IMG/VR virus record: IMGVR_UViG_3300036770_004821
Coordinates: 1 to 64,000 of that record
Length of the DNA stretch: 64,000 bases
From: a virus
Reading direction: 5' to 3' (one strand)
Every line of letters begins with the position of its first letter. Position 1 is the first letter of the stretch. Shown here piece by piece: positions 5,881 to 63,492 of this stretch. Position numbers and translations under genes: made by a program. A model generated the notes under the pieces. It had not been told where the DNA came from. It searched no databases and saw only the letters and a program-made list of their open reading frames with translations.

Positions 5881-8313
5881 TCAAACAGTTCCAACTACTT
5901 CTTCAAAAGAAACGCCAGTTCTGGTGGCAACAAAAGTAAGAGTCACATAGTTAATAGACTTAGCTGGTTTTAGGAAAATGTCAGCTCTGAATTCATTATT
6001 ATCAATAACGTCAGGAGTATTATTAGTTTCATCACATTTTACAAAGAACCCATAGAGACCTCTCTTTGCTTGAACATCACGTAGATAAGGTTCGACAATA
6101 TTTACAAAGTTTGCTCTAGTAATTTCATCATTCAATTCAAACAATTGTGCTTGAGCAGTTCTTTCTAGTGCCTGCTCTACAGTAAGGAATAATCTACGAA
6201 CGTTAATTCTATCAAAAGCAGAAGCATATCCAAGAGCAGTCTTATCACCATAAAGAAGAATACCAATTCCAGGTTGATTTATGATTGAATTAACTCTCAA
6301 TGGATAAAGTTGGTCTCTTTGTGCTTTATTTGGATTATATGCAAGTTTTATTGCATTATTAAGAATACCTCTTTGTTGTCCTGCTGGAGAGAACCAAGGA
6401 TAAGAAAATATACCTGTACGGACCATTAATCCTGCAACGTCAGCATTACAAGGAATATAACGGAATTTGTTATTAAATCTATCATATGTGTACTTATATC
6501 CACTATCAAAGACTGCATATGATGAAGATGGAAGTGGAGAGAAAAATTCTAGAATATTATCAGTTTGTACATCAGAATTAGTAATATCTATCACATCTGC
6601 TCTATGTGGAGAAATTACTGCAATACAATCTTTTCTTCCATTTGCAATAGAGATTAAATGACTTGCTTTTGCTTGAGATTCAAACTTGTTTCCAAGTCCT
6701 GGTCCCATAATCAAATAATCTACAGCAATCTCATCTCTATTTGAGAATAAAATATAAGAATTAAATAGATCTCCCAGAGTTGCATTCATTCCCTTATCAA
6801 CACCATAATCTTTACCGCCAGATAAGGTGTAAGTTACATTTCCAATAGCACTAAATGTTTTATTCTGAGCTTCTAAATTCCAAAGACCTTGAGTATCTGT
6901 ATAAGGCACAATTCCAGAACTAAATCCTGTTGCGAATACAGGTTCATTTACATTTAGATCATCTGAAGGATTATCACCTGCATATACATAATCTGAAAAA
7001 ACTGACAGATAATTTTTCCACCAATTTTTTTGAGGTGAATTTACTGCTGAAATTGAATCTACAGCTTTAGAAAGTCCAATATGCTTTTCTAAGAGATTTC
7101 CTTGAATGCCAGTAACAGAACCTGTGTCATCAATGACAACAATGTGCATTTCATCACTTCTTGAATTTCTTTCTGCTGCATACTGTGATGTTCCTGGTTT
7201 TGGAGCAATTGACCTCCAGAAAATTAAACTATTTTCTAGAGTTATAATTTGCTCATCATACCAATCTAAAATATCTCCAGCAGAAGAACCAAGAGTCTCA
7301 CTTCTTACTGGAATTGAAGACGAAACATCAGAGTCATAGATATTAATAATATTTCCAGGTCTAAATGATCTTAATTGTGCTCTTTGAGCATAGGTTATAG
7401 GTGTTTCTACTCCTAAAGAGTCTACCACTGAAGTAATCTTAACATCAATTGAACTACTTCCTACTCCAGTAACAATTGATTTTAAGTACCCATTAAATAC
7501 TGTAGTTGTTCCAATTCCTGCTGAAGGAACATTAGTTAAGGTTGTTGTAACTGCTGATCCTACTTGTATTGCTCCAGTTACAGTAATATCTCCAAAATCA
7601 AAAGTACTATTTACAACGACTGATTGTAATGATGAATTAGAAATTGAAATTGTACCATTAGTTCCAATACCAGTAACTGTAGTTCCTGGAGGAAGAGTTC
7701 CATTGGTATCACATCTAATTTCTTGACCAACTACGATAGAAGCTGTAGAAATAGCAACAGTACTTGCTCCTCCTACTAAAATTCCACTTCTATCACTGAT
7801 TACTTCGGTAAAGGATACAGTTTCAGTTGTTATGCCTAAAATCTGATCTGCTTTATCATCAATAATTGCAACTTTTAAATTATTTGCCCAAGAACCTGGA
7901 GTTTTTGCAGCAAAAATATAGTTTGCAACATCATCGGCATAATTTGCTTCATAATCATCAAAATTTTTAATTTTTAATTCTGGTTCTCCAGCAGTAGAAA
8001 TACCTGAAGAATTGCGAATAGCATTCGCATTTACTAGTTCCTCTCCATCAGTTCTTACTACTTTCAGTACTCCACCATAAGAAAGAAATGAAGAAGCACT
8101 CATCCAATATTCATATTGTCCATCTTTTGAAGATGGTCTTCCGAATACATTAATTAAATCTTGTTCTGTGGTTATATCAATAGGTTCATCAACTGGACCA
8201 ATTGCAAAAGGACCCGCAATTGCTCCGATATTATCTAAAACATTATCAGCTCTTCCTACTGTTAGGTCAACCTCACGGATCAGTACACCGGGAGATAATT
8301 GAGGAGTCGCCAT
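5881..8313 (-). CDS. 18: Tail sheath protein gp18
   Basis: An 810-aa contractile sheath subunit. N-terminal SPGVLIREVDLTV and the C-terminal region (INVRRLFLTVEQALERTAQA, FVKCDETNNTPDVIDNNEFRADIFLKP) are the conserved sheath handshake and ATP-free contractile core motifs. Residues ~170-320 hold a variable, Ser/Thr/Gly-rich insertion that is expected to face outward. T4 gp18 is 659 aa, so this one is enlarged in the outer domain. Ribosome site AAGGAGAAAAA and a late promoter (8347-8354) precede it. Confidence 0.96.
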   Translation of the reverse strand: MATPQLSPGVLIREVDLTVGRADNVLDNIGAIAGPFAIGPVDEPIDITTEQDLINVFGRPSSKDGQYEYWMSASSFLSYGGVLKVVRTDGEELVNANAIRNSSGISTAGEPELKIKNFDDYEANYADDVANYIFAAKTPGSWANNLKVAIIDDKADQILGITTETVSFTEVISDRSGILVGGASTVAISTASIVVGQEIRCDTNGTLPPGTTVTGIGTNGTISISNSSLQSVVVNSTFDFGDITVTGAIQVGSAVTTTLTNVPSAGIGTTTVFNGYLKSIVTGVGSSSIDVKITSVVDSLGVETPITYAQRAQLRSFRPGNIINIYDSDVSSSIPVRSETLGSSAGDILDWYDEQIITLENSLIFWRSIAPKPGTSQYAAERNSRSDEMHIVVIDDTGSVTGIQGNLLEKHIGLSKAVDSISAVNSPQKNWWKNYLSVFSDYVYAGDNPSDDLNVNEPVFATGFSSGIVPYTDTQGLWNLEAQNKTFSAIGNVTYTLSGGKDYGVDKGMNATLGDLFNSYILFSNRDEIAVDYLIMGPGLGNKFESQAKASHLISIANGRKDCIAVISPHRADVIDITNSDVQTDNILEFFSPLPSSSYAVFDSGYKYTYDRFNNKFRYIPCNADVAGLMVRTGIFSYPWFSPAGQQRGILNNAIKLAYNPNKAQRDQLYPLRVNSIINQPGIGILLYGDKTALGYASAFDRINVRRLFLTVEQALERTAQAQLFELNDEITRANFVNIVEPYLRDVQAKRGLYGFFVKCDETNNTPDVIDNNEFRADIFLKPAKSINYVTLTFVATRTGVSFEEVVGTV

Positions 8314-8375: not shown

Positions 8376-11021
8376 CTAACTTATATATTCCCACATATAT
8401 GAACGATCCCCATACTCATCAGTATACCATCTATCACCATCACTATCTATAAAAGTATTTTCTTCATTTATTCCATCTATAATAAACCCAAATGGAGACA
8501 TATCTTGCTCTACTTGATTCTTTTGTTCTTCATAAATTCTTTTTCTAATATCCTGATCAGTTAATTCTTTAAAATAATCTTGTAGTATTAACCAAGCATA
8601 CATTACAAGACACATCACTAAATCATCATTTCTTCCCTCTTCTGCCTCAAAAGAATTTGCTTTTTGTATAAAGGTAGTAAGTTCATTAATAATTTCAAAG
8701 TCGTTGAAAATCAATTTATTATCTTCTATTAAGGTTTTTAAATTTAAACAACCAACTTTTTTGGTTGTTTTGGACATTTTTACCCCAAGTTGAACTTTTT
8801 TACCAGAAAATCCTTGACCTAAAATTTGTCCTGCCCTTCCCCTCATTGAACTCATAAGAAGATTAGGATATTCTAAATCATAATGAAGTCCTGCAGCCAC
8901 TTGATCTCCAACATCATTAACTTCACATAAAATATATGCATTATTATATGATTTTGCCACATCTTTAATTATGTTTGGAAACAGTATTGGTCTTATTTGA
9001 TTATTTCTATATTTTGCTACTACCTTGTGAGGAAACTGTGATACATCAATTACTACAAATGCAGAAAAGTCTTTTTCAACTCCACGAGCAACATCTACAG
9101 TAACAACATATGTATGATCTTCTTGGGGATCTTCATAAACATCTAGTCCTGCACTTGAAGTTTTTGGATTATCAAATATTAATCTATTTAATATAGGACC
9201 GGAAATTAATGTATCTGAGGAACCCAAAAATAGACATTCAAATTCTTGTCTCCACTGAGATTCTGAAGTATTTGCTATGGTAGTTCTTTTAAACTCTTCG
9301 TCTCTTCCTGGAACATCAGTCCAATGAACTTCAATTGGAACATACTCATTTCTATTTTTTTGAGCATCATCCCAAAGACGATAAAAATGATTCATTCCAT
9401 AAGGAGTACTTACAACTATAACCTTAGAAGATTTACCTGAAGTAATTACAGGATATACAGAACTAAAAAAGTTATCAGCAACTGTATTTGGAACGAATGC
9501 AAATTCGTCCAAAAAAATAATATTATAAGTACCACCTCGAATAGAAGATGCTGAAGTAGAAGCTGCAGTTATCTTGGACTTATTTTCAAGTTCTAAGGAT
9601 CCCTTGTTCCACGATAAGACCCCTTGTTGCAACCACTTGGGTAAATTCTCATATCCTGTCTGAAGACGGGTTAGAAGGTCTCTGGCAGTGTTTGCTTTGT
9701 TTGCAAGAATAGCAATATTTACATTATCATTAAATATCGCATAATGGAGAAGATATGAAACTACAGTTGTTGAATTGTGAGTTGGTATAAAAGTTCTACC
9801 ACATAAGAATAAATGATCATCGCTATCTACAGAAATACAAGCAACAGGAACACTATTGACCTTTTCAATTTTTTGGATGTATATTCTTTTATCTTGTGGT
9901 CTTAATGGTCTACTATTATTGATAAGATTATATTTTCTGGGAAGATTAAATACTCTTTCTACAGTTGTAAATGAAACTGTGTGATATAAACAATCTTTTA
10001 TTTTTTTAACTCTTATTCTTGATTTAATTCCTAAAGATGAAAGTAATTCTACAAACTGTAATGTAAGTTCATAATTTTTTTGATAAAATTCAAAAGATCT
10101 TGTATTTGGTTTTAATGATCCATCAGTATCCATTAACCCACGTAATAACTCAAGTCTAGAATTATATGAAGATCTTAAGTAAATCTGAGGAATGTGTTTA
10201 TTTTTTAATAAATTATTTTGTTTTAATTTTTGATACAATCCATCACACTTAAATCTAATGCAATTATTATCTTCTCGTAAATATTCAATTTTTATTTTAT
10301 CTTTATAAAATTTAAAATCATCTTTATGTGAAACAATTCTAGAATCTGCGGAATAACCATCACCTAACCATACTCCAAGAAGGTAAGGATCAATTGGTAA
10401 TTCTTTTTCTGTTACAAAGTTATCTAAAGGTTTTGATATTTCTATGTAATATGAACCACAAACACCAAAACCTTTTTTATTATTTTTTTTCTTCTCGTAT
10501 ATTTTTGCAATTTCTTCAGAATTGATAATTTTTTTACCAGAAGACCAATAAGAACTATTCACTTCCCATAAATGATCAGCATCTGCAACTATTTCTTCAC
10601 CATTATCAAAATAAAATTTATAACAATTGTGATTAAACATAGTTTCTGTTTTTTTAATAACAGAAACTGATTTTCCTGAAGGTGATAATATTTTATCACC
10701 TTCAGAAATATCTCCCATTGTGGTCCAACCATTAGGTGTTGGAATAGGAGTATCTAAACTTAATGCTTTACCACTTTGTCTAGGTAATTTACATATACTA
10801 AATCTATTCTCATGAAAAGTTTTTACCATATTTTCCTGAAAAGGATACATGTCAAAAGTTGTTAATCCATGATCAAGGGTTGTAATTTTTATATATTTTT
10901 TTGCAAAATAAACAGGATCTTGAGCGCATTTAATCCACTCAAGAACCTGTTCTTCCGTAAATTCAATTTTGGTATTTGCTTTCTTGAGCAAAGGATTGCC
11001 CAAATAATGTTCTTCAGACAT
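8376..11021 (-). CDS. 17: Terminase large subunit gp17, interrupted in frame by an intein
   Basis: An 881-aa precursor: N-extein 1-85, intein 86-416, C-extein 417-881, giving a 550-aa spliced packaging ATPase/nuclease. The N-extein ends in the Walker A part LPRQSGK and the C-extein resumes STTVVSYLLHYAIF, so splicing rebuilds GKSTT. Walker B is IIFLDEFAF (D505, E506). The nuclease domain has TVDVARGVEKDFSAF (D643), CEVNDVGD and GRNDDLVMCL. The motor cannot bind ATP without splicing, so packaging depends on it. The gene overlaps the upstream HNH gene by 8 nt. The small subunit gene 16 is 2.4 kb upstream rather than adjacent. Confidence 0.96.
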   Translation of the reverse strand: MSEEHYLGNPLLKKANTKIEFTEEQVLEWIKCAQDPVYFAKKYIKITTLDHGLTTFDMYPFQENMVKTFHENRFSICKLPRQSGKALSLDTPIPTPNGWTTMGDISEGDKILSPSGKSVSVIKKTETMFNHNCYKFYFDNGEEIVADADHLWEVNSSYWSSGKKIINSEEIAKIYEKKKNNKKGFGVCGSYYIEISKPLDNFVTEKELPIDPYLLGVWLGDGYSADSRIVSHKDDFKFYKDKIKIEYLREDNNCIRFKCDGLYQKLKQNNLLKNKHIPQIYLRSSYNSRLELLRGLMDTDGSLKPNTRSFEFYQKNYELTLQFVELLSSLGIKSRIRVKKIKDCLYHTVSFTTVERVFNLPRKYNLINNSRPLRPQDKRIYIQKIEKVNSVPVACISVDSDDHLFLCGRTFIPTHNSTTVVSYLLHYAIFNDNVNIAILANKANTARDLLTRLQTGYENLPKWLQQGVLSWNKGSLELENKSKITAASTSASSIRGGTYNIIFLDEFAFVPNTVADNFFSSVYPVITSGKSSKVIVVSTPYGMNHFYRLWDDAQKNRNEYVPIEVHWTDVPGRDEEFKRTTIANTSESQWRQEFECLFLGSSDTLISGPILNRLIFDNPKTSSAGLDVYEDPQEDHTYVVTVDVARGVEKDFSAFVVIDVSQFPHKVVAKYRNNQIRPILFPNIIKDVAKSYNNAYILCEVNDVGDQVAAGLHYDLEYPNLLMSSMRGRAGQILGQGFSGKKVQLGVKMSKTTKKVGCLNLKTLIEDNKLIFNDFEIINELTTFIQKANSFEAEEGRNDDLVMCLVMYAWLILQDYFKELTDQDIRKRIYEEQKNQVEQDMSPFGFIIDGINEENTFIDSDGDRWYTDEYGDRSYMWEYIS
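9774..10766 (-). mobile_element. Class 3-like intein with LAGLIDADG homing domain in gp17
   Basis: Residues 86-416 of the precursor (331 aa). It begins with Ala (ALSLDTPIPTPNGW), not Cys or Ser, and ends FIPTHN before Ser+1. Block B is ADADHLWEV with Trp at 152, block F is VACISVD with Cys at 395, and block G has Thr at 414 before His415-Asn416. This W-C-T set with no residue-1 nucleophile is the signature of class 3 inteins, where the block F Cys starts splicing. The middle holds both dodecapeptide motifs of a DOD endonuclease: LLGVWLGDGY (~214-223) and LLRGLMDTDG (~292-301). Both look intact, so homing may be active. Confidence 0.92.
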
Positions 11022-46237: not shown

Positions 46238-47053
46238 ATGAAAACAGGAATAATATATTGTATTACAAATACAATAAATGGTAAACGTTATATTGGACAA
46301 ACCAAAAATGAATTAAACAAAAGATGGAAAGATCATCTTAATGAAGCAAAGAAATATAATACTAGACCTCTTTACAGAGCAATAAACAAATACGGAACTG
46401 ACGTTTTTAAAATTAAGATAATAGAAGAATGTAATATTGAGAACTTAAATGAAAAAGAAGCATTTTGGATAAAAAAGTTAAATACATTCAATAATGGATA
46501 TAATGCTACCTCTGGTGGAGATCATTTCGATCATAGTGATAAGACAAAAGATAAAATATCCATCACTATGACAAACATTGAAAGAAATGATAATTGGAGA
46601 AAGAATAGTGAAAATAGTTTAAAACATAAAGTTGAAAAAGGTGAATTATGGGGTTTTCTAAAAGGAAATCATTATAACCACAATAAACTTAAAAGAAAAG
46701 TAAAAGCAATTAATCTAGAAACAGGAGAAGAAACTATATTTGAAAGTATGAATAATGCTGCCTATGTAATTACAGGAAATAAAAAGTGTGCTAGTAATAT
46801 ATCTAATGCTATTAAAAATGGATTTAATGTTTATGGTTATAAATGGGAAAAAATAGATAATACTCCTACAAAAATATCAGTTATTGGTATTCATAAGAGA
46901 ACAGAGGAAATAATAAAGTATGAAAGTATGAGTGCTGCTGCTTTTGATTTAACAGGTGATCCAACAAAAGCAAAGGGTGGATTAAGAAAAAGTTTATCAA
47001 ATCCTGGTAAAAATAGTTGGATGGGATATTATTGGTATTATCAAAATTCATAA
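46238..47053 (+). CDS. GIY-YIG homing endonuclease with NUMOD-type repeats
   Basis: A 271-aa protein and the clearest gene on the plus strand. The GIY-YIG domain spans ~1-95: TGIIYCITNTINGKRYIGQT, catalytic Arg in KRWKDHL and the FKIKIIEECNIENLNEKEAF helix with the metal-binding Glu. Two DNA-binding repeats follow (VKAINLETGEETIFESMNNA ... GYKW and VIGIHKRTEEIIKYESMSAA ... GYYW), as in NUMOD1 modules. Its end overlaps the convergent 70-aa gene by 13 nt. It has both host-type and late promoters. It is intact and likely a free-standing mobile gene. Confidence 0.92.
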   Translation: MKTGIIYCITNTINGKRYIGQTKNELNKRWKDHLNEAKKYNTRPLYRAINKYGTDVFKIKIIEECNIENLNEKEAFWIKKLNTFNNGYNATSGGDHFDHSDKTKDKISITMTNIERNDNWRKNSENSLKHKVEKGELWGFLKGNHYNHNKLKRKVKAINLETGEETIFESMNNAAYVITGNKKCASNISNAIKNGFNVYGYKWEKIDNTPTKISVIGIHKRTEEIIKYESMSAAAFDLTGDPTKAKGGLRKSLSNPGKNSWMGYYWYYQNS

Positions 47054-48824: not shown

Positions 48825-49334
48825 TCAGAGACTCTTATACAAACTTCCGTATTTTCCGAAAATCGTCTGAAATCTATTCAGTCGATTTCCAAGATAGATG
48901 ATTGCAGATTGAAATGGTGCTGCGCTCTTTCCTTCACCAAACTTCAATCTTCGATTTATAGCAATCCAAGGATAATCAGATACTGATTTCCACCAAACAG
49001 TAGATACATCTAATTTGATGAGAAGTATCATTTCTTTACTATTTCCTTTTTCATATTGATTCACTGCATAAGGTATCCAATTCTTACTGTCACTGTAAGG
49101 ATGATTCATAAAAACAGAATCTGCAATCCAATCGTGTTGCAATCCATTTGTGATTTCTGTGAATACTCTTTTTGCAGGAACATTTGGATTATTTTCATCA
49201 TTTGAGCAAGGGTCTAAATCAACCTCACCTTCAAAAAATACAAGTACATCCTCTACAAATGATTTTGGAGTATTCCAACAATCAGTTCGATTTCCTGTCG
49301 ATGCTGTGAGTGCTTTAAGCGCGGTTGAAGTCAT
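48825..49334 (-). CDS. Phage Dam-type N6-adenine DNA methyltransferase
   Basis: A 169-aa protein of the phage DNA N-6-adenine methyltransferase family. Marks are DCWNTPKSFVEDVL near 18-31, VDLDPCSNDENNP, the catalytic-motif variant FMNHPYSDSKNW (usual NPPY), MILLIKLDVSTVWWKSV and INRRLKFGEGKSAAPFQSAI. It transfers a methyl group from S-adenosylmethionine to adenine, most likely in GATC-like sites. Its start overlaps the stop of the MutH/Sau3AI-like nuclease gene by ATGA, so the two are translated together. It could protect phage DNA against that nuclease and host enzymes. Confidence 0.9.
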   Translation of the reverse strand: MTSTALKALTASTGNRTDCWNTPKSFVEDVLVFFEGEVDLDPCSNDENNPNVPAKRVFTEITNGLQHDWIADSVFMNHPYSDSKNWIPYAVNQYEKGNSKEMILLIKLDVSTVWWKSVSDYPWIAINRRLKFGEGKSAAPFQSAIIYLGNRLNRFQTIFGKYGSLYKSL

Positions 49335-56428: not shown

Positions 56429-56836
56429 TCAAAAATTGCGATTGAACACATAATTGTTGTTGATTACATAATCCCAAGCAAGATCCTTGGCAAAGGCATC
56501 ATAATCAATGTAGGATTCAAGTTCTTCGGGAACAAGATGCCCGTAAATCTCATTGAAGAAGTTTTCAGCAAAGGAGTCAAAATCACTCCATTCACCATTG
56601 TAGGCATCATCAAAGTTATCCAGATTATCAAATCCAAACTCTGCGACAAAGGCATCTACCGCATCATAACTGACACTTTCACCAATCCGCACAAAATCCT
56701 CATAGTATTTCACAAAGGTATCTTCACCATACTCGTTAATGAAAACATAAATGTCTTCCTCATAATAAGAATCTTCGACAAGACCAGCAATGTATTCTTG
56801 AGTGGATTCTTTGAGTTGAACTTGAGTTGCGGTCAT
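56429..56836 (-). CDS. ardA: ArdA-like antirestriction protein
   Basis: A 135-aa very acidic protein. From ATG at 56836 (ribosome site AAAGGAAAC): EYIAGLVEDSYYEEDIYVFI, EYGEDTFVKYYEDFVRIGES, AFVAEFGFDNLDNFDDAYNG, DSFAENFFNEIYGHLVPEEL, then ESYIDYDAFAKDLAWDYVI and NNYVFNRNF. The late part YIDYDAFAKDL...YVF is typical of ArdA, a DNA mimic that blocks type I restriction enzymes. The length is a little below the classic 160-170 aa. The longer frame upstream crosses the promoter cassette and is not used. A broken second copy is at 54476-54959. Confidence 0.85.
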   Translation of the reverse strand: MTATQVQLKESTQEYIAGLVEDSYYEEDIYVFINEYGEDTFVKYYEDFVRIGESVSYDAVDAFVAEFGFDNLDNFDDAYNGEWSDFDSFAENFFNEIYGHLVPEELESYIDYDAFAKDLAWDYVINNNYVFNRNF

Positions 56837-56863
56837 TTGCGTTTCCTTTGCTTGTGTCCTTGT

Positions 56864-56884
56864 ATTATAGGGCATCCGGTGCCC
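56864..56884 (-). promoter_or_regulatory. Promoter with upstream palindrome before ardA
   Basis: -10 TATAAT (56864-56869) and GGGCACCGGATGCCC palindrome (56870-56884), identical to the cassette at 57270-57290. Confidence 0.7.
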
Positions 56885-56898
56885 CAGTGGGGGTTTAG

Positions 56899-56922
56899 TG
56901 TGCCAGTCTGAAAACTGGCACA
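56899..56922 (-). terminator. Intergenic hairpin with compensatory base change
   Basis: Arms TGTGCCAGT/ACTGGCACA (9 bp) around CTGAAA. Against the common arms TGTGCCACT/AGTGGCACA the eighth pair is changed on both sides, which supports a selected stem. It is 2 nt after the stop of the 56924-57241 gene. Confidence 0.65.
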
Positions 56923-56923
56923 C

Positions 56924-57241
56924 TCACTGCTTGGCAGTCCAGTTCATAATCTCCAGCATAGTTTCTGGAGTGATCCACCCCAGAACCTGATCACCTTCTG
57001 GACACCCTGGAAAATCGGTGGAGAATTTATCATCAGGAGTGAACACTGCAATTTCTGCATCTTCACTGTGAAATCCTCCCCAAATGGGAACAGTTGCACG
57101 ATGATCAACATCCACAAATCTATTTTGGCAGTAGTTTCCCCCGCCGAACATTACACTGACCCTCCACCCGTTGGCGAAGGTGATTTGAAATCCCTTTTCA
57201 GCAAATGTAGAGAACAACGTAGGATTGAGGAGGTTAGTCAC
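56924..57241 (-). CDS. Hypothetical protein, paralog of 50281-50544 gene (105 aa)
   Basis: A GTG start at 57241 with AAAGGAACC ribosome site gives VTNLLNPTLFSTFAEKGFQI, TFANGWRVSVMFGGGNYCQN, DAEIAVFTPDDKFSTDFPGC and VLGWITPETMLEIMNWTAKQ. It shares F-x-NGW-x-x-SV, a hydrophobic EIAVF strand and the last helix with the 87-aa protein at 50281-50544. The upstream codons with ATG would start within the promoter, so they are rejected. Confidence 0.7.
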   Translation of the reverse strand: MTNLLNPTLFSTFAEKGFQITFANGWRVSVMFGGGNYCQNRFVDVDHRATVPIWGGFHSEDAEIAVFTPDDKFSTDFPGCPEGDQVLGWITPETMLEIMNWTAKQ

Positions 57242-57269
57242 TGTGAGGTTCCTTTGCTTGTGTCCTTGT

Positions 57270-57290
57270 ATTATAGGGCATCCGGTGCCC
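57270..57290 (-). promoter_or_regulatory. Promoter with upstream palindrome
   Basis: -10 TATAAT (57270-57275) next to GGGCACCGGATGCCC (57276-57290); distance to the GTG start at 57241 fits a 20-nt leader. Confidence 0.7.
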
Positions 57291-57304
57291 CAGTGGGGGT
57301 GTAG

Positions 57305-57328
57305 TGTGCCAGTAGAACAAGTGGCACA
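57305..57328 (-). terminator. Intergenic hairpin, family copy 5
   Basis: TGTGCCAGT...AAGTGGCACA form with one mismatch in the stem; placed 9 nt after the stop of the 57337-57675 gene. Confidence 0.55.
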
Positions 57329-57336
57329 CTGTATAA

Positions 57337-57675
57337 TCAATTACCCTGCATTTGCTCCCTACGATTGAGTTCCTTTTCTACCGCAATTTCAAGATGCTCT
57401 TTGATAATAGAATTAATAGTAGATTCTATCCGACCTTCAAAATGAGCAATGAGGTCATACCATTTATTATTCGCAACCCTACGAGCAATCTTATTCGTAA
57501 AATATTCATCATAACGGAGAATTTCACTCACATTAGATTTAACCATATCACGAATTGAATCTTGGTCGGTAAATTCTTTTTTGCGAGTCTCAAGTTCTTC
57601 GAGAAGATAATTCAGACCAGCAATAAGATTGTCAATCTTAACCAGATTATCGTTCAGAGTAGTGGTAGGAGTCAT
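57337..57675 (-). CDS. Coiled-coil hypothetical protein (112 aa)
   Basis: A 112-aa helical protein: LVKIDNLIAGLNYLLEELET, RKKEFTDQDSIRDMVKSNVS, YFTNKIARRVANNKWYDLIA then INSIIKEHLEIAVEKELNRR. Heptad-like hydrophobic spacing suggests oligomerisation. It lies directly downstream of the E1-like gene and may be part of the same expression unit; no family recognised. Confidence 0.6.
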   Translation of the reverse strand: MTPTTTLNDNLVKIDNLIAGLNYLLEELETRKKEFTDQDSIRDMVKSNVSEILRYDEYFTNKIARRVANNKWYDLIAHFEGRIESTINSIIKEHLEIAVEKELNRREQMQGN

Positions 57676-57716: not shown

Positions 57717-58427
57717 TCAGGAAACCGTGGTTTTCAGATTGCGAAGATTGAAGAACATAGAACTTTGGTTCTTATCGAAGAATCCATCCAGGAAGTTTTG
57801 AATCACCATCAGAGTAAGTGATGCTGCAAGAAAGTTTGCGGAAATCAGTTGAGGACGACTCGGTGCGTTCAGAGAACAAGAACCTTCGGACGGAATACTA
57901 TCTTGAGGACGTTCGATGTTGGGATAAACATCTGCGGGATTGCAACCCACGTTCTCACCATTTACTTTACCAAACCAAAGAACTTGACCACGCACATCTT
58001 CAAGACCATCAGAATTGCCTGGAGTGATGAAGATGTAGTCACCTTCACAAAAGGCCTTCATTGTGTTGATGATTGCAAGTCGAGTGGCATCATTATCCAC
58101 CGAACACACAACCAGAGGACAAACAGAACGTCGGAGCATCGGAATAAACGTCGAGGCAGAAATGAAACTTTCCTTAGACTCAACATTGCTAAGACCCTGA
58201 TATGCACAGAAGTCTACCATCGAACGTGCTTTATTCATACCAACTTGACTAGGACCAACAAGTTGTCGAGTGGTATTCTTATCCTCAAACTCATCACCAT
58301 CAATAAACACGACTTTGGAATCTTGAGTATTCTGATGATACGCAATCAGACGTGCGAGTGGAGCAGCAAGATGACCACCAGTACCACCAACACCAATCAC
58401 AAAAACGTAGTCGGGAGAAAAAGTCAT
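57717..58427 (-). CDS. ThiF/E1-like activating enzyme (PRTRC ThiF type)
   Basis: A 236-aa E1-like protein. The Rossmann start YVFVIGVGGTGGHLAAPLAR (GxGGTGG 12-18), FIDGDEFEDKNTTRQL (D43, D45, N51, R54-Q55 for ATP and Mg), VCSVDNDATRL (D111) and EGSCSLNAPSRPQLISANFL with Cys184 as likely catalytic Cys fit the PRTRC ThiF branch. It would adenylate the C-terminal Gly of the ubiquitin-like protein at 60669-60929 and carry it as a thioester. It has its own extended -10 promoter (58449-58454) and follows the E2-like gene. Confidence 0.88.
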   Translation of the reverse strand: MTFSPDYVFVIGVGGTGGHLAAPLARLIAYHQNTQDSKVVFIDGDEFEDKNTTRQLVGPSQVGMNKARSMVDFCAYQGLSNVESKESFISASTFIPMLRRSVCPLVVCSVDNDATRLAIINTMKAFCEGDYIFITPGNSDGLEDVRGQVLWFGKVNGENVGCNPADVYPNIERPQDSIPSEGSCSLNAPSRPQLISANFLAASLTLMVIQNFLDGFFDKNQSSMFFNLRNLKTTVS

Positions 58428-58448
58428 AATTTCCTTTGGTTCCTTTAC

Positions 58449-58454
58449 AGTATA
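58449..58454 (-). promoter_or_regulatory. Extended -10 promoter (TGCTATACT) for E1-like gene
   Basis: Minus strand CCTGCTATACTGTAAAGGAA: TGn extended -10 with TATACT at 58449-58454 and AAAGGAA ribosome site before ATG at 58427. Confidence 0.6.
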
Positions 58455-58484
58455 GCAGGGGATAGGTCGAAAACAGGGGTTATA

Positions 58485-58506
58485 GGGACACTTGCAGAAG
58501 TGTCCC
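58485..58506 (-). terminator. Stem-loop after E2-like gene
   Basis: GGGACACTT/AAGTGTCCC, 9-bp perfect stem with 4-nt loop, 9 nt after the E2-like stop. Confidence 0.55.
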
Positions 58507-58514
58507 CTGATGTA

Positions 58515-59471
58515 TCAAACCTGACCAACAATCAGTCCATCGTGAGACACAAACCACCGTTTGTTGAGTTCATCTGGAGAAGTCAGATAACCAGAGAAAA
58601 ACCCACCGTTCTTTTCGATTGTAGATTCAAACAGAGGAATCATCATAATGTGTGGTGCATCTGGAACAGACTTAAATCCAGCAGTGAGCATTTGGAAAAA
58701 TGCAGAAATATCTTCCGCAGCATCAAGAAGCATCAGAGCATCTGGACTTTCAGTGCTAAGAAGTTTCTCATTCTCCTTCTCATAAAACTCTCCATTGTCG
58801 GCAAGATACCGAGTTTCTCTTGAGTTGTCTTCAAATGCCCTCATAGGCAGAAGGTCATTATTAAATGGAGTTTCAAAGTAAGCCTCAACAATACCCCTCA
58901 GAGTTTGAGGTCTATCGTTGTCTCCCCAACAAACACCCTCGGGGTAATCTGAACAACCAAAAACATTGGCAGCCATCATTGTTTCGGTGGAATGAATGTT
59001 TCCATCGTCCCCCACCTTACCCGCAGAAAGATATGCGGTATCACCATCAAGAGAAAACTTAGAGTAATGAGTCTTCAGATGATTCAGGGCAATTCCGAAT
59101 ACCATATTGGAGAGTCGGAAGTCAATAACATCATCTTCTGCCCCGTGTCCTTCTGGGCAAGTTTGACCGTAATAACCTTCATCATACACAGCACAATGAT
59201 TCCGAAGGTCTGGATGGTCCCAATTTACATCACCCTCATCATCTTCATAGTTGGAAAGAAAGTCACAGCAATTCCTAGGACAATCATCACAGAAAGCATT
59301 GTGAAAATCATCATTATCGGGTTTTACTTCCTGATGAATGTTCTTATACCCATCAGGCATCCACGCTTTAATCCAAAGATAATCAGATACGGAGAATGTA
59401 ATTATTTCCGAACCTTTAGGTAGAGGATGAACTTTAGCCTTATTTGGTTGGTTTAGAAAAATTACAGACAT
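58515..59471 (-). CDS. E2-like ubiquitin-conjugating protein (PRTRC protein B / E2 family D type)
   Basis: A 318-aa protein from ATG at 59471. Residues ~165-210 read AANVFGCSDYPEGVCWGDND then LRGIVEAYFETPFNNDLLPM. This is the pattern of prokaryotic E2 family D (PRTRC protein B): strands, N-V, G-x-V-C-x-G with the active Cys (C181), then a helix ending F-x-T-x-F-N. A Cys-rich insert lies earlier (CDDCPRNCCDFL at 61-72, C93, C105) and may bind zinc. It sits between the JAB and E1-like genes. The longer upstream frame is rejected as it begins above the promoter TGCTACAAT (59494-59502). Confidence 0.72.
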   Translation of the reverse strand: MSVIFLNQPNKAKVHPLPKGSEIITFSVSDYLWIKAWMPDGYKNIHQEVKPDNDDFHNAFCDDCPRNCCDFLSNYEDDEGDVNWDHPDLRNHCAVYDEGYYGQTCPEGHGAEDDVIDFRLSNMVFGIALNHLKTHYSKFSLDGDTAYLSAGKVGDDGNIHSTETMMAANVFGCSDYPEGVCWGDNDRPQTLRGIVEAYFETPFNNDLLPMRAFEDNSRETRYLADNGEFYEKENEKLLSTESPDALMLLDAAEDISAFFQMLTAGFKSVPDAPHIMMIPLFESTIEKNGGFFSGYLTSPDELNKRWFVSHDGLIVGQV

Positions 59472-59493
59472 TTGTTTGGTTTCTTGTTCCAAC

Positions 59494-59499
59494 ATTGTA
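59494..59499 (-). promoter_or_regulatory. Extended -10 promoter (TGCTACAAT) for E2-like gene
   Basis: Minus strand GTGCTACAATGTTGG with -10 TACAAT at 59494-59499, 23 nt ahead of the ATG at 59471. Confidence 0.55.
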
Positions 59500-59527
59500 G
59501 CACGCATCAGGGGTAAAACTGGGATAT

Positions 59528-59553
59528 GGTGGACACTCCAAGAAGTGTCCACC
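59528..59553 (-). terminator. Stem-loop after JAB gene
   Basis: GGTGGACACT/AGTGTCCACC, a perfect 10-bp stem with a 6-nt loop, 12 nt after the JAB-domain stop. Confidence 0.6.
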
Positions 59554-59565
59554 AAAGGTATTCAA

Positions 59566-60588
59566 TCAAACAACAGTGGACATAAGGTCTTCACTTTCAA
59601 CTTCAAGATAATCATCGAGGTCTTTTACGAAATCCTCAAGTTCATCTTTAAGTTTGTAGAGAAGCATTGGATTGTCTAGATGTTGCTCCAGATAGTCGGC
59701 AAGAGTATCTGTAATGTTCCAACAGTCAATCTTATGATTAGAATTGTAGGAATTACTCCAGTAGAATGGGTCATTCTTATAATCCGTGTAATCATTACCC
59801 CAACCCAAGTTCTTAGGATTGCTATATTGAGACTTACTGTAAGTACCAGTAGATACTTTCTTCGACCAAACAACTGCTTTGATTGCTGGTTTGGTGAAGT
59901 CTACATAATTGATAACATCTGGATGAAACTCTACTCCAGGACAAGCAGAAGCATCAATCAGTTTATCAAATTGAACTTCAAACCGACGACGAGAACCAAC
60001 AACAGAAGCAGCAATTCGATATTTCATATTGGTGGTGTCAATAGAACCCACAACAATATGAATACCAGGGTCATTCAGTTCATATTTGTCATCAATAGAA
60101 CTGAAGAACGCTTCCATAGTATTATGACTATGCGAAGAACCCACAGGAATCCAACCATCAGGAGGATACTGAGTGATTTCTTCACCAGTCTCCAGGTCGA
60201 TAGAAACATCGAAATCTTCTGCTCGCACAGAAGCAGCAGAGACTTTCTGATAAGGAATCAGAAAACGATACTTAGAAGGGTCTTCTGCACTACGAAGGAT
60301 GCGAGTAGAAACTTCTACCGTATCTTGAACTTTGTCTACAAAGTAGAAACAGAGTTTGACCCACTTTGTCCACAGGTCAGCAGGAATACGGTGAATATCC
60401 TCTCGCAGTTGAAACTCCTCAAGGTGCTTATCACTAATTTCTACATTTGCATCAGGGTCATCTGCTTCTCGCAGATAGGAACCCCAAGGACCATCATATA
60501 CTTCCCACACACCATCCCTACGAGTTCGAAGAATGGTGGGAGATTGAACTTCTTGAACTTCTTGATTTTCTTCAGTAAGAGTGGTCAT
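59566..60588 (-). CDS. JAB/JAMM-domain metallopeptidase (PRTRC protein A type)
   Basis: A 340-aa protein with an exact JAMM motif: VGSSHSHNTMEAFFSSIDD gives H153, H155, S163 and D166 (H-x-H-x7-S-x2-D); the matching Glu is probably E92 in TVEVSTRILRS. The domain spans ~75-210. JAMM enzymes cut isopeptide bonds between a ubiquitin-like protein and its target or trim its C-terminal tail. The C-terminal ~100 residues (KSQYSNPKNLGWGNDYTDYK ... DYLEQHLDNPMLLYKLKDEL) are an added helical part. It lies directly after the ubiquitin-like gene. Confidence 0.85.
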   Translation of the reverse strand: MTTLTEENQEVQEVQSPTILRTRRDGVWEVYDGPWGSYLREADDPDANVEISDKHLEEFQLREDIHRIPADLWTKWVKLCFYFVDKVQDTVEVSTRILRSAEDPSKYRFLIPYQKVSAASVRAEDFDVSIDLETGEEITQYPPDGWIPVGSSHSHNTMEAFFSSIDDKYELNDPGIHIVVGSIDTTNMKYRIAASVVGSRRRFEVQFDKLIDASACPGVEFHPDVINYVDFTKPAIKAVVWSKKVSTGTYSKSQYSNPKNLGWGNDYTDYKNDPFYWSNSYNSNHKIDCWNITDTLADYLEQHLDNPMLLYKLKDELEDFVKDLDDYLEVESEDLMSTVV

Positions 60589-60612
60589 TTTGAATAATTC
60601 AGGATAGCAAAA

Positions 60613-60649
60613 TACTTCCCATTGAGGAAAAAATCCTCAATGGGAAGTA
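60613..60649 (-). terminator. 16-bp perfect hairpin between Ubl and JAB genes
   Basis: TACTTCCCATTGAGGA pairs with TCCTCAATGGGAAGTA around a 5-nt loop, 20 nt after the Ubl stop. It may attenuate transcription so that the small Ubl protein is made in excess. Confidence 0.7.
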
Positions 60650-60668
60650 GGAAAACAAAGGGAGTAAC

Positions 60669-60929
60669 TCAACCCTTGCTCTCAGAAGTTACAGCCCCCC
60701 TAATGCTCTCACCAGCACGCACAACGGTATCACCAGGCACAATCTCGGTGTTCAGAACAAAGCGGTTGATTCGACTCACATCACCCAGAGAATGACCGTA
60801 CTCACCGAACAGTTGGGAAACAGTTTTGCCACGGAACTGATCGGAAGTCAGAGTGATGCTCTCCTCGTTGAGGTACAGAGTCACAGGAGCGGTTTGGTCA
60901 GCGGTGCGGATTTGATCGAAGAAAGACAT
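60669..60929 (-). CDS. Ubiquitin-like beta-grasp protein (PRTRC protein C type)
   Basis: An 86-aa protein from ATG at 60929. APVTLYLNEESITLTSDQFR, GKTVSQLFGEYGHSLGDVSR, INRFVLNTEIVPGDTVVRAG then ESIRGAVTSESKG. Strand-strand-helix-strand-strand order with a conserved PGDTVxxGxxI turn is the beta-grasp fold as in ThiS/MoaD and PRTRC protein C. It ends in a single Gly (SKG), as needed for E1 activation without trimming. Its upstream promoter is TGCTATGAT (60992-60997). It leads a four-gene cassette with JAB, E2-like and E1-like genes. Confidence 0.75.
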   Translation of the reverse strand: MSFFDQIRTADQTAPVTLYLNEESITLTSDQFRGKTVSQLFGEYGHSLGDVSRINRFVLNTEIVPGDTVVRAGESIRGAVTSESKG

Positions 60930-62235: not shown

Positions 62236-63471
62236 TCAGGTAACTAGAACCTGACCCTTGACAAAGATCGTATCAACAACATTTTGAAGTTGTCGAGCAA
62301 TCTTATCACCATAGTTGTTCTGGACGGGAACAGTGATGGTGCCGAATGGTTTGCGATACAGTTCAAATTGACCGGGTTTGACCGTGCCATTTTGAATTGC
62401 TTTGCGATCATCCTTACTCATACGGATCACACGACCAATGGTCTGTGCCATTTCAATCAGGGGAAGATTGCGAAGCATAATACAATGAGTAAGTCCATGT
62501 ACGTTCATTCCTTCGGAAAGAATAGAGTAATGAAACACAATCATCTTTTTGATGGGATCATTACCACACTCTGCCATTTTGTCGAAGAATACTTCACGAG
62601 ACACTTTCTTCTTGTTGATGTAACCACCGTGCTTGCTGGTGATATGAAATACGGTAAATCCCATATCATTCAGTTGTTGAAGCAGATCACTTTCAGTGAA
62701 CATACCCCAAATTACTTTGGTGCTGGGAGAAGCAACAAGCACTTTGGGAGTGATACTATCATCAATCTCTTTGAGAATACCGATGACATTTTCCGCATCT
62801 ACAAATGCAGCATTTTCTTTTGTGCGAGTGGTTTCAGACTTATAAGTATGAACCCGAGGAGGAATGATTGAACCAGCATCCAGCAGTTCCGTAGCAGGCA
62901 CAGAAATAAGATTCTGACCGTACACACGGGTATTATTCATAGATTCTTCACTGTTCTTATACTTGGGAGTTGCGGTGAAGAAATAAGCATTTTCTGCGAA
63001 CTCGGAGATGTGAGCAACACCTACAAAGTTGCTGGGTTTGGTGCAATGATGTGCCTCATCAAAATAGACAACATCAATGTCAATTCCAGAGTCATTTACA
63101 CGACCAATGGAATTGTAGGTAGTAAAAATAAACCGATGATTTCCTGCTTCTTTTGCTGCTGCGTGATAGTTTGCGATGATGTGAGGACGGGTGGAGGATT
63201 GATGATGAGTTTCTCCACTGTGGCAATGAATATAAGTAATATCCATACCTTTCAGGTAGTCTTCAAACTCTGCAGAGAGTTGATTGGCAAGAAGAATACG
63301 AGGAGCAACGACAACAAATGTCATCGTATGCTGAGCATCAAGAATACGATGACGGGCATCCTCCATCATCACAGCAGTCTTACCACCACCAGTAGGAATG
63401 TAGACAGTACCTTTGGAGTGATTTTGAACAGCAGTCAGGGCACGTTGTTGATAAGGAAGGAGAGTGAACAT
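62236..63471 (-). CDS. SF2 DEAH-box helicase/ATPase
   Basis: A 411-aa superfamily 2 helicase from ATG at 63471. LLPYQQRALTAV (Q motif), YIPTGGGKTAVMM (motif I), VVAPRILLANQL (Ia), VVYFDEAHHCTKP (motif II), FFTATPKY (III), HYSILSEGMNV (V) and MAQTIGRVIRMS (VI) are all present. Layout resembles T4 UvsW-like and restriction-type SF2 helicases but is a short single unit. It may unwind recombination intermediates or branched DNA. Promoter TGCTATAAT (63493-63501) lies just upstream. Confidence 0.9.
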   Translation of the reverse strand: MFTLLPYQQRALTAVQNHSKGTVYIPTGGGKTAVMMEDARHRILDAQHTMTFVVVAPRILLANQLSAEFEDYLKGMDITYIHCHSGETHHQSSTRPHIIANYHAAAKEAGNHRFIFTTYNSIGRVNDSGIDIDVVYFDEAHHCTKPSNFVGVAHISEFAENAYFFTATPKYKNSEESMNNTRVYGQNLISVPATELLDAGSIIPPRVHTYKSETTRTKENAAFVDAENVIGILKEIDDSITPKVLVASPSTKVIWGMFTESDLLQQLNDMGFTVFHITSKHGGYINKKKVSREVFFDKMAECGNDPIKKMIVFHYSILSEGMNVHGLTHCIMLRNLPLIEMAQTIGRVIRMSKDDRKAIQNGTVKPGQFELYRKPFGTITVPVQNNYGDKIARQLQNVVDTIFVKGQVLVT

Positions 63472-63492
63472 AATCAATTCAAGTGTAAAGTA

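Follow-up and report, generated by a model that had tools for sequence, protein, structure and literature searches.

The window analysed here is a stretch of 64,000 nucleotides of viral DNA (positions 1 to 64,000 of IMG/VR record IMGVR_UViG_3300036770_004821, whose full length is 71,805 bases). An initial annotation, made from the sequence alone, had described on its minus strand a row of genes for a ubiquitin-like protein (Ubl), a JAB protease, an E2-like protein and an E1-like enzyme. All four open reading frames (ORFs) lie where they had been placed, and a fifth gene downstream of them belongs to the same block. The features of this cassette are as follows, with the evidence for each in brackets.

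60669..60929, minus strand: Ubl, 86 aa, C-terminal SESKG (ORF; AlphaFold2 model; PDB fold matches; viral homologues upstream of JAB)
60613..60649, minus strand: terminator-like hairpin 3' of the Ubl gene, 16 pairs followed by a T-rich stretch (fold z-score -7.15)
59566..60588, minus strand: JAB/JAMM metalloprotease, 340 aa, with an N-terminal domain (Prok-JAB match; motif residues)
59526..59554, minus strand: perfect hairpin between the JAB and E2 genes, GGTGGACACTTC...GTGTCCACC (fold z-score -3.75)
58515..59471, minus strand: E2-like protein, 318 aa from the ATG at 59471 (alignments; profile-profile comparison)
57717..58427, minus strand: E1/ThiF-like adenylating enzyme, 236 aa, catalytic Cys184 (ThiF and PRTRC_ThiF matches; PDB profile matches)
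57337..57675, minus strand: fifth cassette gene, 112 aa (homologues after E1 in window-type relatives)

As the Ubl gene ends in a strong terminator-like hairpin and the JAB gene in a perfect one, the Ubl gene may be transcribed separately from the rest.

Conservation of the encoded proteins

Relatives of the cassette were recovered with alignment-based searches of viral contigs, which returned 64 loci with the JAB alignment and 48 with the E1 alignment; single-protein scans of the same contigs with E1, E2 or JAB confirmed nothing. A scan of genome contigs, limited to two window-type JAB peptide patterns, found no relative. Pooling viral, phage and plasmid records, we obtained 119 loci with both E1 and JAB, 92 of them distinct by E1 sequence and nearly all viral. 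These counts are lower bounds and would change with the motifs used for searching. A number of the IMG/VR contigs could be fragmentary or wrongly classified: of 41 tested, 19 matched a PHROG terminase model, which also gives matches in bacterial controls. E1 and JAB lay within 3.5 kb of each other in 91 of the 92 distinct sets, with an E2 match nearby in 76. Named carriers include Bacillus phage KLEB27-3, Vibrio phage D69, Salmonella phage Arash and Burkholderia phage BgVeeders33, alongside one faecal contig, and a related E1 is present in 257 plasmid records. In the E1 tree, the window and its relatives (17 rows) form one group (94/90), which five intermediates join at 100/90, all of these rows being from viral contigs; the E1s of plasmid PRTRC cassettes fall elsewhere, among other phage sequences. 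The intermediate cassettes L023 and L024 each have two different E2-like genes, one on either side of JAB; L021 has two Ubl genes. The order JAB-E2-E1 is kept in all 17 distinct window-type cassettes, which argues that the gene block is not a product of chance; PRTRC-type phage cassettes mostly run E2-JAB-E1 (52 distinct).

The ratio of nonsynonymous to synonymous substitution rates was 0.02-0.24 for E1, 0.10-0.27 for JAB, 0.10-0.43 for Ubl and 0.19-0.43 for E2; these values come from the measurable pairs, with a synonymous rate at or below about 1; the window's own pairs are near synonymous saturation.

The Ubl bore out its annotation as a beta-grasp protein with a terminal Gly. Its AlphaFold2 model (predicted local distance difference test (pLDDT) score 77) has the strand-strand-helix-strands layout of this fold, and the 50 PDB matches listed for it were mostly beta-grasp proteins (TGS, ubiquitin-like, SUMO, Urm1, MoaD and TtuB; best E 1.2e-3). 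Searched alone, the window Ubl had no match in Pfam, NCBIfam, PHROGs or PADLOC. A homologue lies upstream of JAB in window-type relatives wherever the contig reaches far enough, and its tail is SESKG or a near variant, with zero to two varied residues past KG (SENKGF, SESKGVY, SESKGLG, SESKGS and KGRH). PolyUbl genes of two to five repeats occur among PRTRC-type relatives; examples from phage genes are four tandem repeats at L001:676-1425, three at L004:3295-4086 and five at L027:4054-5160. Residues beyond the Gly and tandem Ubls both fit precursors cut by a processing isopeptidase, here the JAB.

That protease has its predicted metal-binding motif intact, as H153-S-H155-x7-S163-x2-D166, and matches Pfam Prok-JAB at 26.3 bits (cut-off 25). 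Neither of the two JAB alignments (A2 and A6) shows any variation at residues E92, H153, H155, S163 and D166. Across relatives, a regular expression for the JAMM motif was found in 85 of 91 JABs, and three of the six others (L076, L085 and L088) are interrupted right at the HSH codons by a group I intron (RF00028, 55-63 bits; L076:4078-4318, L085:4046-4286 and L088:3966-4202). Window-type JABs also share a conserved region around R21 and W35 that aligns with the pMOL28 A protein, whose N-terminal Arg/Trp domain is a feature of PRTRC.

The E1 has the GxGGTGG motif described for it (as GVGGTGG) and Cys184. It matches Pfam ThiF at 31.2 bits (cut-off 28.1) and PRTRC_ThiF (TIGR03736) at E 9.5e-15; the score of 54.6 bits is below the curated cut-off of 144.75, and the homology is clear. 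Its ATP-site residues G12, G15, D43, R54 and K66 are conserved in 90 of 90 sequences where aligned, and the catalytic Cys184 in 83 of 83 where that column aligns. Against the PDB, the E1 profile matched the NEDD8 E1 UBA3 (4.6e-10), UBA5, the SUMO E1 and ThiF; PDB sequence searches with the JAB and E2 profiles gave chance matches only. On these profile matches, the 236-aa protein is a true E1-family enzyme.

A ThiF-like E1 would also suit a sulfur carrier system, in which a ThiS/MoaD-type Ubl is converted to a thiocarboxylate, the JAB only matures the Ubl, and sulfur passes to a small molecule or tRNA; one close Ubl relative has a weak ThiS match (17.5 bits, below the cut-off). We regard this as improbable. 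UBA3 and UBA5 match the E1 profile better than ThiF does, the cassette consistently includes an E2-like protein whose Cys is conserved, and the scanned neighbours contained no sulfur gene such as those for rhodanese, ThiG or MoaE.

Eukaryotic E2 enzymes carry the signature HPN...C. The E2-like protein of the window has Cys181 in the GVCWG motif that had been pointed out, and Asn169, Cys181, Asn204 and Asp206 are invariant in an alignment of 25 diverse proteins. Many of its relatives share the pattern PFPN-[IV]-x(3)-[DG]-x-[IV]-C-W-G, close to this signature except that the His is missing; N169 and C181 correspond to the Asn and Cys of the classical HPN-x-C motif. Of the 25 proteins in this wider E2 set, 14 match Prok-E2_D and 12 match PRTRC_B. 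When the profile of window-type E2s was compared with an independent PRTRC-type (B) profile in hhalign, the two aligned over residues 116-209 at 95.7% (E 9.7e-9); a JAB profile, used as the control, scored 0.2%. Window-type E2s contain in addition an insert with four invariant Cys residues (C61, C64, C93 and C105), probably a metal site.

Homologues of the fifth gene, which the initial annotation had left outside the block, follow E1 in the window lineage, usually at a distance of no more than 104 bp and in two cases at 1.2 kb. Its 112-aa product is probably helical.

Relation to known ubiquitin-like systems

The closest known arrangement is the PRTRC cassette of plasmids (NCBIfam families TIGR03735-03738; reference plasmid pMOL28), to which the initial annotation had likened the locus. 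Both comprise a Ubl, a JAB with an N-terminal Arg/Trp domain, an E2-like protein without the classical E2 His, which in the window is tied to Prok-E2_D by profile comparison, and a ThiF-like E1, adjoining on mobile elements. However, the JAB scored 24.7 bits against the curated PRTRC_A model (TIGR03735; cut-off 101.8), and Pfam and NCBIfam scans did not place the Ubl in the PRTRC C/Prok_Ub family; it is not detectably related to the C-type profile (hhalign 1.7%). The gene order is Ubl-JAB-E2-E1 rather than the C-F-B-A-ThiF of PRTRC, and the window E1 falls in a separate, virus-only clade. The window-type E2 differs from B proteins by its four-Cys insert and by an Asn in place of their conserved His: the His that lies C-terminal to the E2 Cys in pMOL28 and BgVeeders33 (FTHPN) aligns with FNNDL in the window. 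Library scans of the cassette neighbours showed no ParB-like, E or F gene; the lack of a ParB-like gene next to the cassette had already been remarked on. The proposed link to PRTRC therefore holds as distant homology of E1, JAB and E2 and fails for the model cut-offs, the Ubl, the gene order, the E2 His and the ParB, E and F genes: the window cassette is remotely related to PRTRC cassettes and not one of them. The cassettes of KLEB27-3, D69, Arash and BgVeeders33 are likewise phage-borne, with E2, JAB and E1 adjacent and, in the first three, a Ubl, but they differ in their E2-JAB-E1 order and in their Prok_Ub-type single or poly-Ubls ending in GTKG or GVKG.

Bil, an antiphage system, also combines a Ubl, an E1, an E2 and a JAB. 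The window cassette follows the same logic; it is, however, carried by a phage, whereas Bil is a bacterial defence locus. Of the four proteins, the E1 alone matched PADLOC models, weakly, with one BilD model (17.4 bits) among its 22 matches; the Ubl, JAB and E2-like proteins matched no Bil model there. Apart from this weak BilD match, the proteins do not match the BilA-D models. In type II cyclic-oligonucleotide-based antiphage signalling systems (CBASS), Cap2 performs E1-E2 conjugation and Cap3, a JAB, deconjugation, and one C-terminal Gly or Ala suffices (PMC10097602). The window cassette would have the corresponding activities, but its E1 and E2 are separate ORFs in place of the Cap2 fusion, and a dedicated Ubl replaces cGAS; Pfam and NCBIfam scans of the cassette neighbours showed no CD-NTase.

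That hosts use Cap2-type Ubl conjugation to defend themselves against phages is established (PMC10097602), and the window E1 weakly matches PADLOC E1-E2 as well as BilD models. The cassette could accordingly serve as a counter-defence that mimics or disrupts a host Bil or type II CBASS and is not itself a functioning pathway; the JAB might, for instance, cleave host conjugates, or the Ubl might block a host E1 or E2. Such interference would not require all the active sites of E1, E2 and JAB and the Ubl tail to be retained together, as they are in 17 cassettes, and similar cassettes occur on plasmids, which have no lytic cycle. We therefore hold this explanation to be quite improbable.

The operon logic of PRTRC-like cassettes corresponds to type 6d of Iyer et al. 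(2006; PMC1779556), for which the sections of that survey considered here give bacterial carriers. In the same sections, phage-encoded Ubl and JAB proteins appear only as lambda-type tail genes. These lambda/T1 tail assembly proteins I and K resemble the window cassette in that a Ubl and a JAB are encoded by a phage; as described there, they come without E1 or E2 and have the JAB fused to NlpC/P60, whereas the window cassette lies outside the tail gene block. A survey of 224 jumbo-phage genomes (PMC7824862) makes no mention of JAB, ThiF, Ub-like or PRTRC proteins. The open literature searched yielded no account of phage cassettes of this kind, which is no proof of novelty, and nothing relevant on phage Arash or on PRTRC in phages. 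The virus-only, window-type lineage is set apart by its own Ubl, fixed gene order and four-Cys E2; the operon logic was already known.

The virus and its host

The description of the virus as a T4-like phage was confirmed by its genes: the record encodes T4-like portal, sheath, sheath stabiliser, head-closure and baseplate wedge proteins as well as a terminase. The nearest portal relatives belong to the Synechococcus phages S-SCSM1 (76.2%) and S-SM2 (75.6%). The cassette also occurs together with a related portal (68 and 78%, respectively) on two viral contigs, 284 and 258 kb long, and since both encode photosystem reaction-centre proteins, a cyanobacterial host is likely. In the phage collection, the portal matched 381 Synechococcus-phage records and the E1 matched no cultured cyanophage, which marks the cassette as accessory.

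Several other features of the record were recorded. The terminase large subunit (8376-11021, 881 aa) has a LAGLIDADG-like domain at residues 290-346, probably an intein, and the tail sheath (5881-8313), with 810 aa against 496 positions in the family profile, contains a large insert. A GIY-YIG endonuclease gene lies at 46238-47053 on the plus strand and a Dam-type DNA adenine methylase gene at 48825-49334 on the minus strand. Near the cassette, a DNA helicase is encoded at 62236-63477 (phrog_16, E 4e-62), with related genes in both large relatives. Past the window end, the same contig (L074) encodes a peptide deformylase (7866-8291) and a cytidine/deoxycytidylate deaminase-like protein (7265-7651). 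Similar PHWGT-CPII-like stretches begin several ORFs (56429-57340; L074:3825-4316) and point to an intergenic repeat that is being read as part of the coding sequence. An Rfam scan of the window found no element.

A proposed conjugation pathway and its targets

Taken with the observed genes, motifs and conservation, the Ubl fold, the E1 family membership and the profile homology of the E2 point to a phage-borne pathway for ubiquitin-like conjugation and deconjugation, a reading to which we give a probability of roughly 0.7 and in which the chemistry is inferred. The JAB would trim the Ubl precursor to its Gly in relatives that need trimming; in the window, this Gly is already terminal. The E1 would adenylate the Gly and then hold the Ubl as a thioester on Cys184, from where it would move to Cys181 of the E2-like protein, with the conserved Asn assisting its joining to target lysines. 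The JAB would also take the tag off again. Target choice might lie with the fifth, probably helical protein and with the four-Cys insert of the E2.

Several observations weigh against this pathway. By itself, the E2-like protein matched nothing in Pfam, NCBIfam, PHROGs or PADLOC. Its AlphaFold2 model is confident (pLDDT 90.6, predicted template modelling score 0.83), and Foldseek searches of the PDB and BFVD with this model found no UBC-fold neighbour, so the check proposed in the initial annotation, an E2-like fold around Cys181, fails as worded; the N-x-C motif and the Prok-E2_D homology nevertheless speak for a UBC fold. The name E2-like therefore follows from sequence profiles and not from fold: the tie to Prok-E2_D and PRTRC_B around Cys181 stands, and a fold match is absent. 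Given the lack of both a library match and a UBC-fold neighbour, the protein could instead be an unrelated cysteine enzyme or adaptor. Moreover, 11 PRTRC-type loci have no E2 match, the Ubls of two relatives have SKA or SKQA, not KG, at the C-terminus, and no E3 or substrate was identified.

If the conjugation pathway operates, its targets would be host proteins modified during infection in favour of a large mobile element. Since cassettes of this kind are common to large plasmids and large phages, the target seems likelier to be one whose modification aids large mobile elements in the host than to be a virion protein. Tagging of the phage's own or a rival's structural proteins might be read from phage Arash, whose cassette E2 and E1 are annotated as 'structural protein', possibly from virion mass spectrometry. 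The Arash cassette, however, adjoins structural genes bearing the same label, and plasmids that carry this cassette form no virions; we consider virion-directed tagging highly improbable. A bolder version of the conjugation pathway, speculative and on balance unlikely, is a self-contained, virus-specific Ubl signalling system with its own Ubl subfamily, a metal-binding E2 variant with a new architecture and its own target-recognition insert, and a dedicated helical adaptor, by which T4-like cyanophages would relabel host proteins in the course of infection.

Bacterial ubiquitin-like conjugation is known chiefly as antiphage defence. If the proposed pathway is real, phages too would run Ubl conjugation, by means of a gene set that has retained the motifs for all its steps in many large phages. 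The cassettes are small, testable gene sets, some of them in cultured phages, and may help to explain the role of the long-orphan PRTRC cassette of plasmids.

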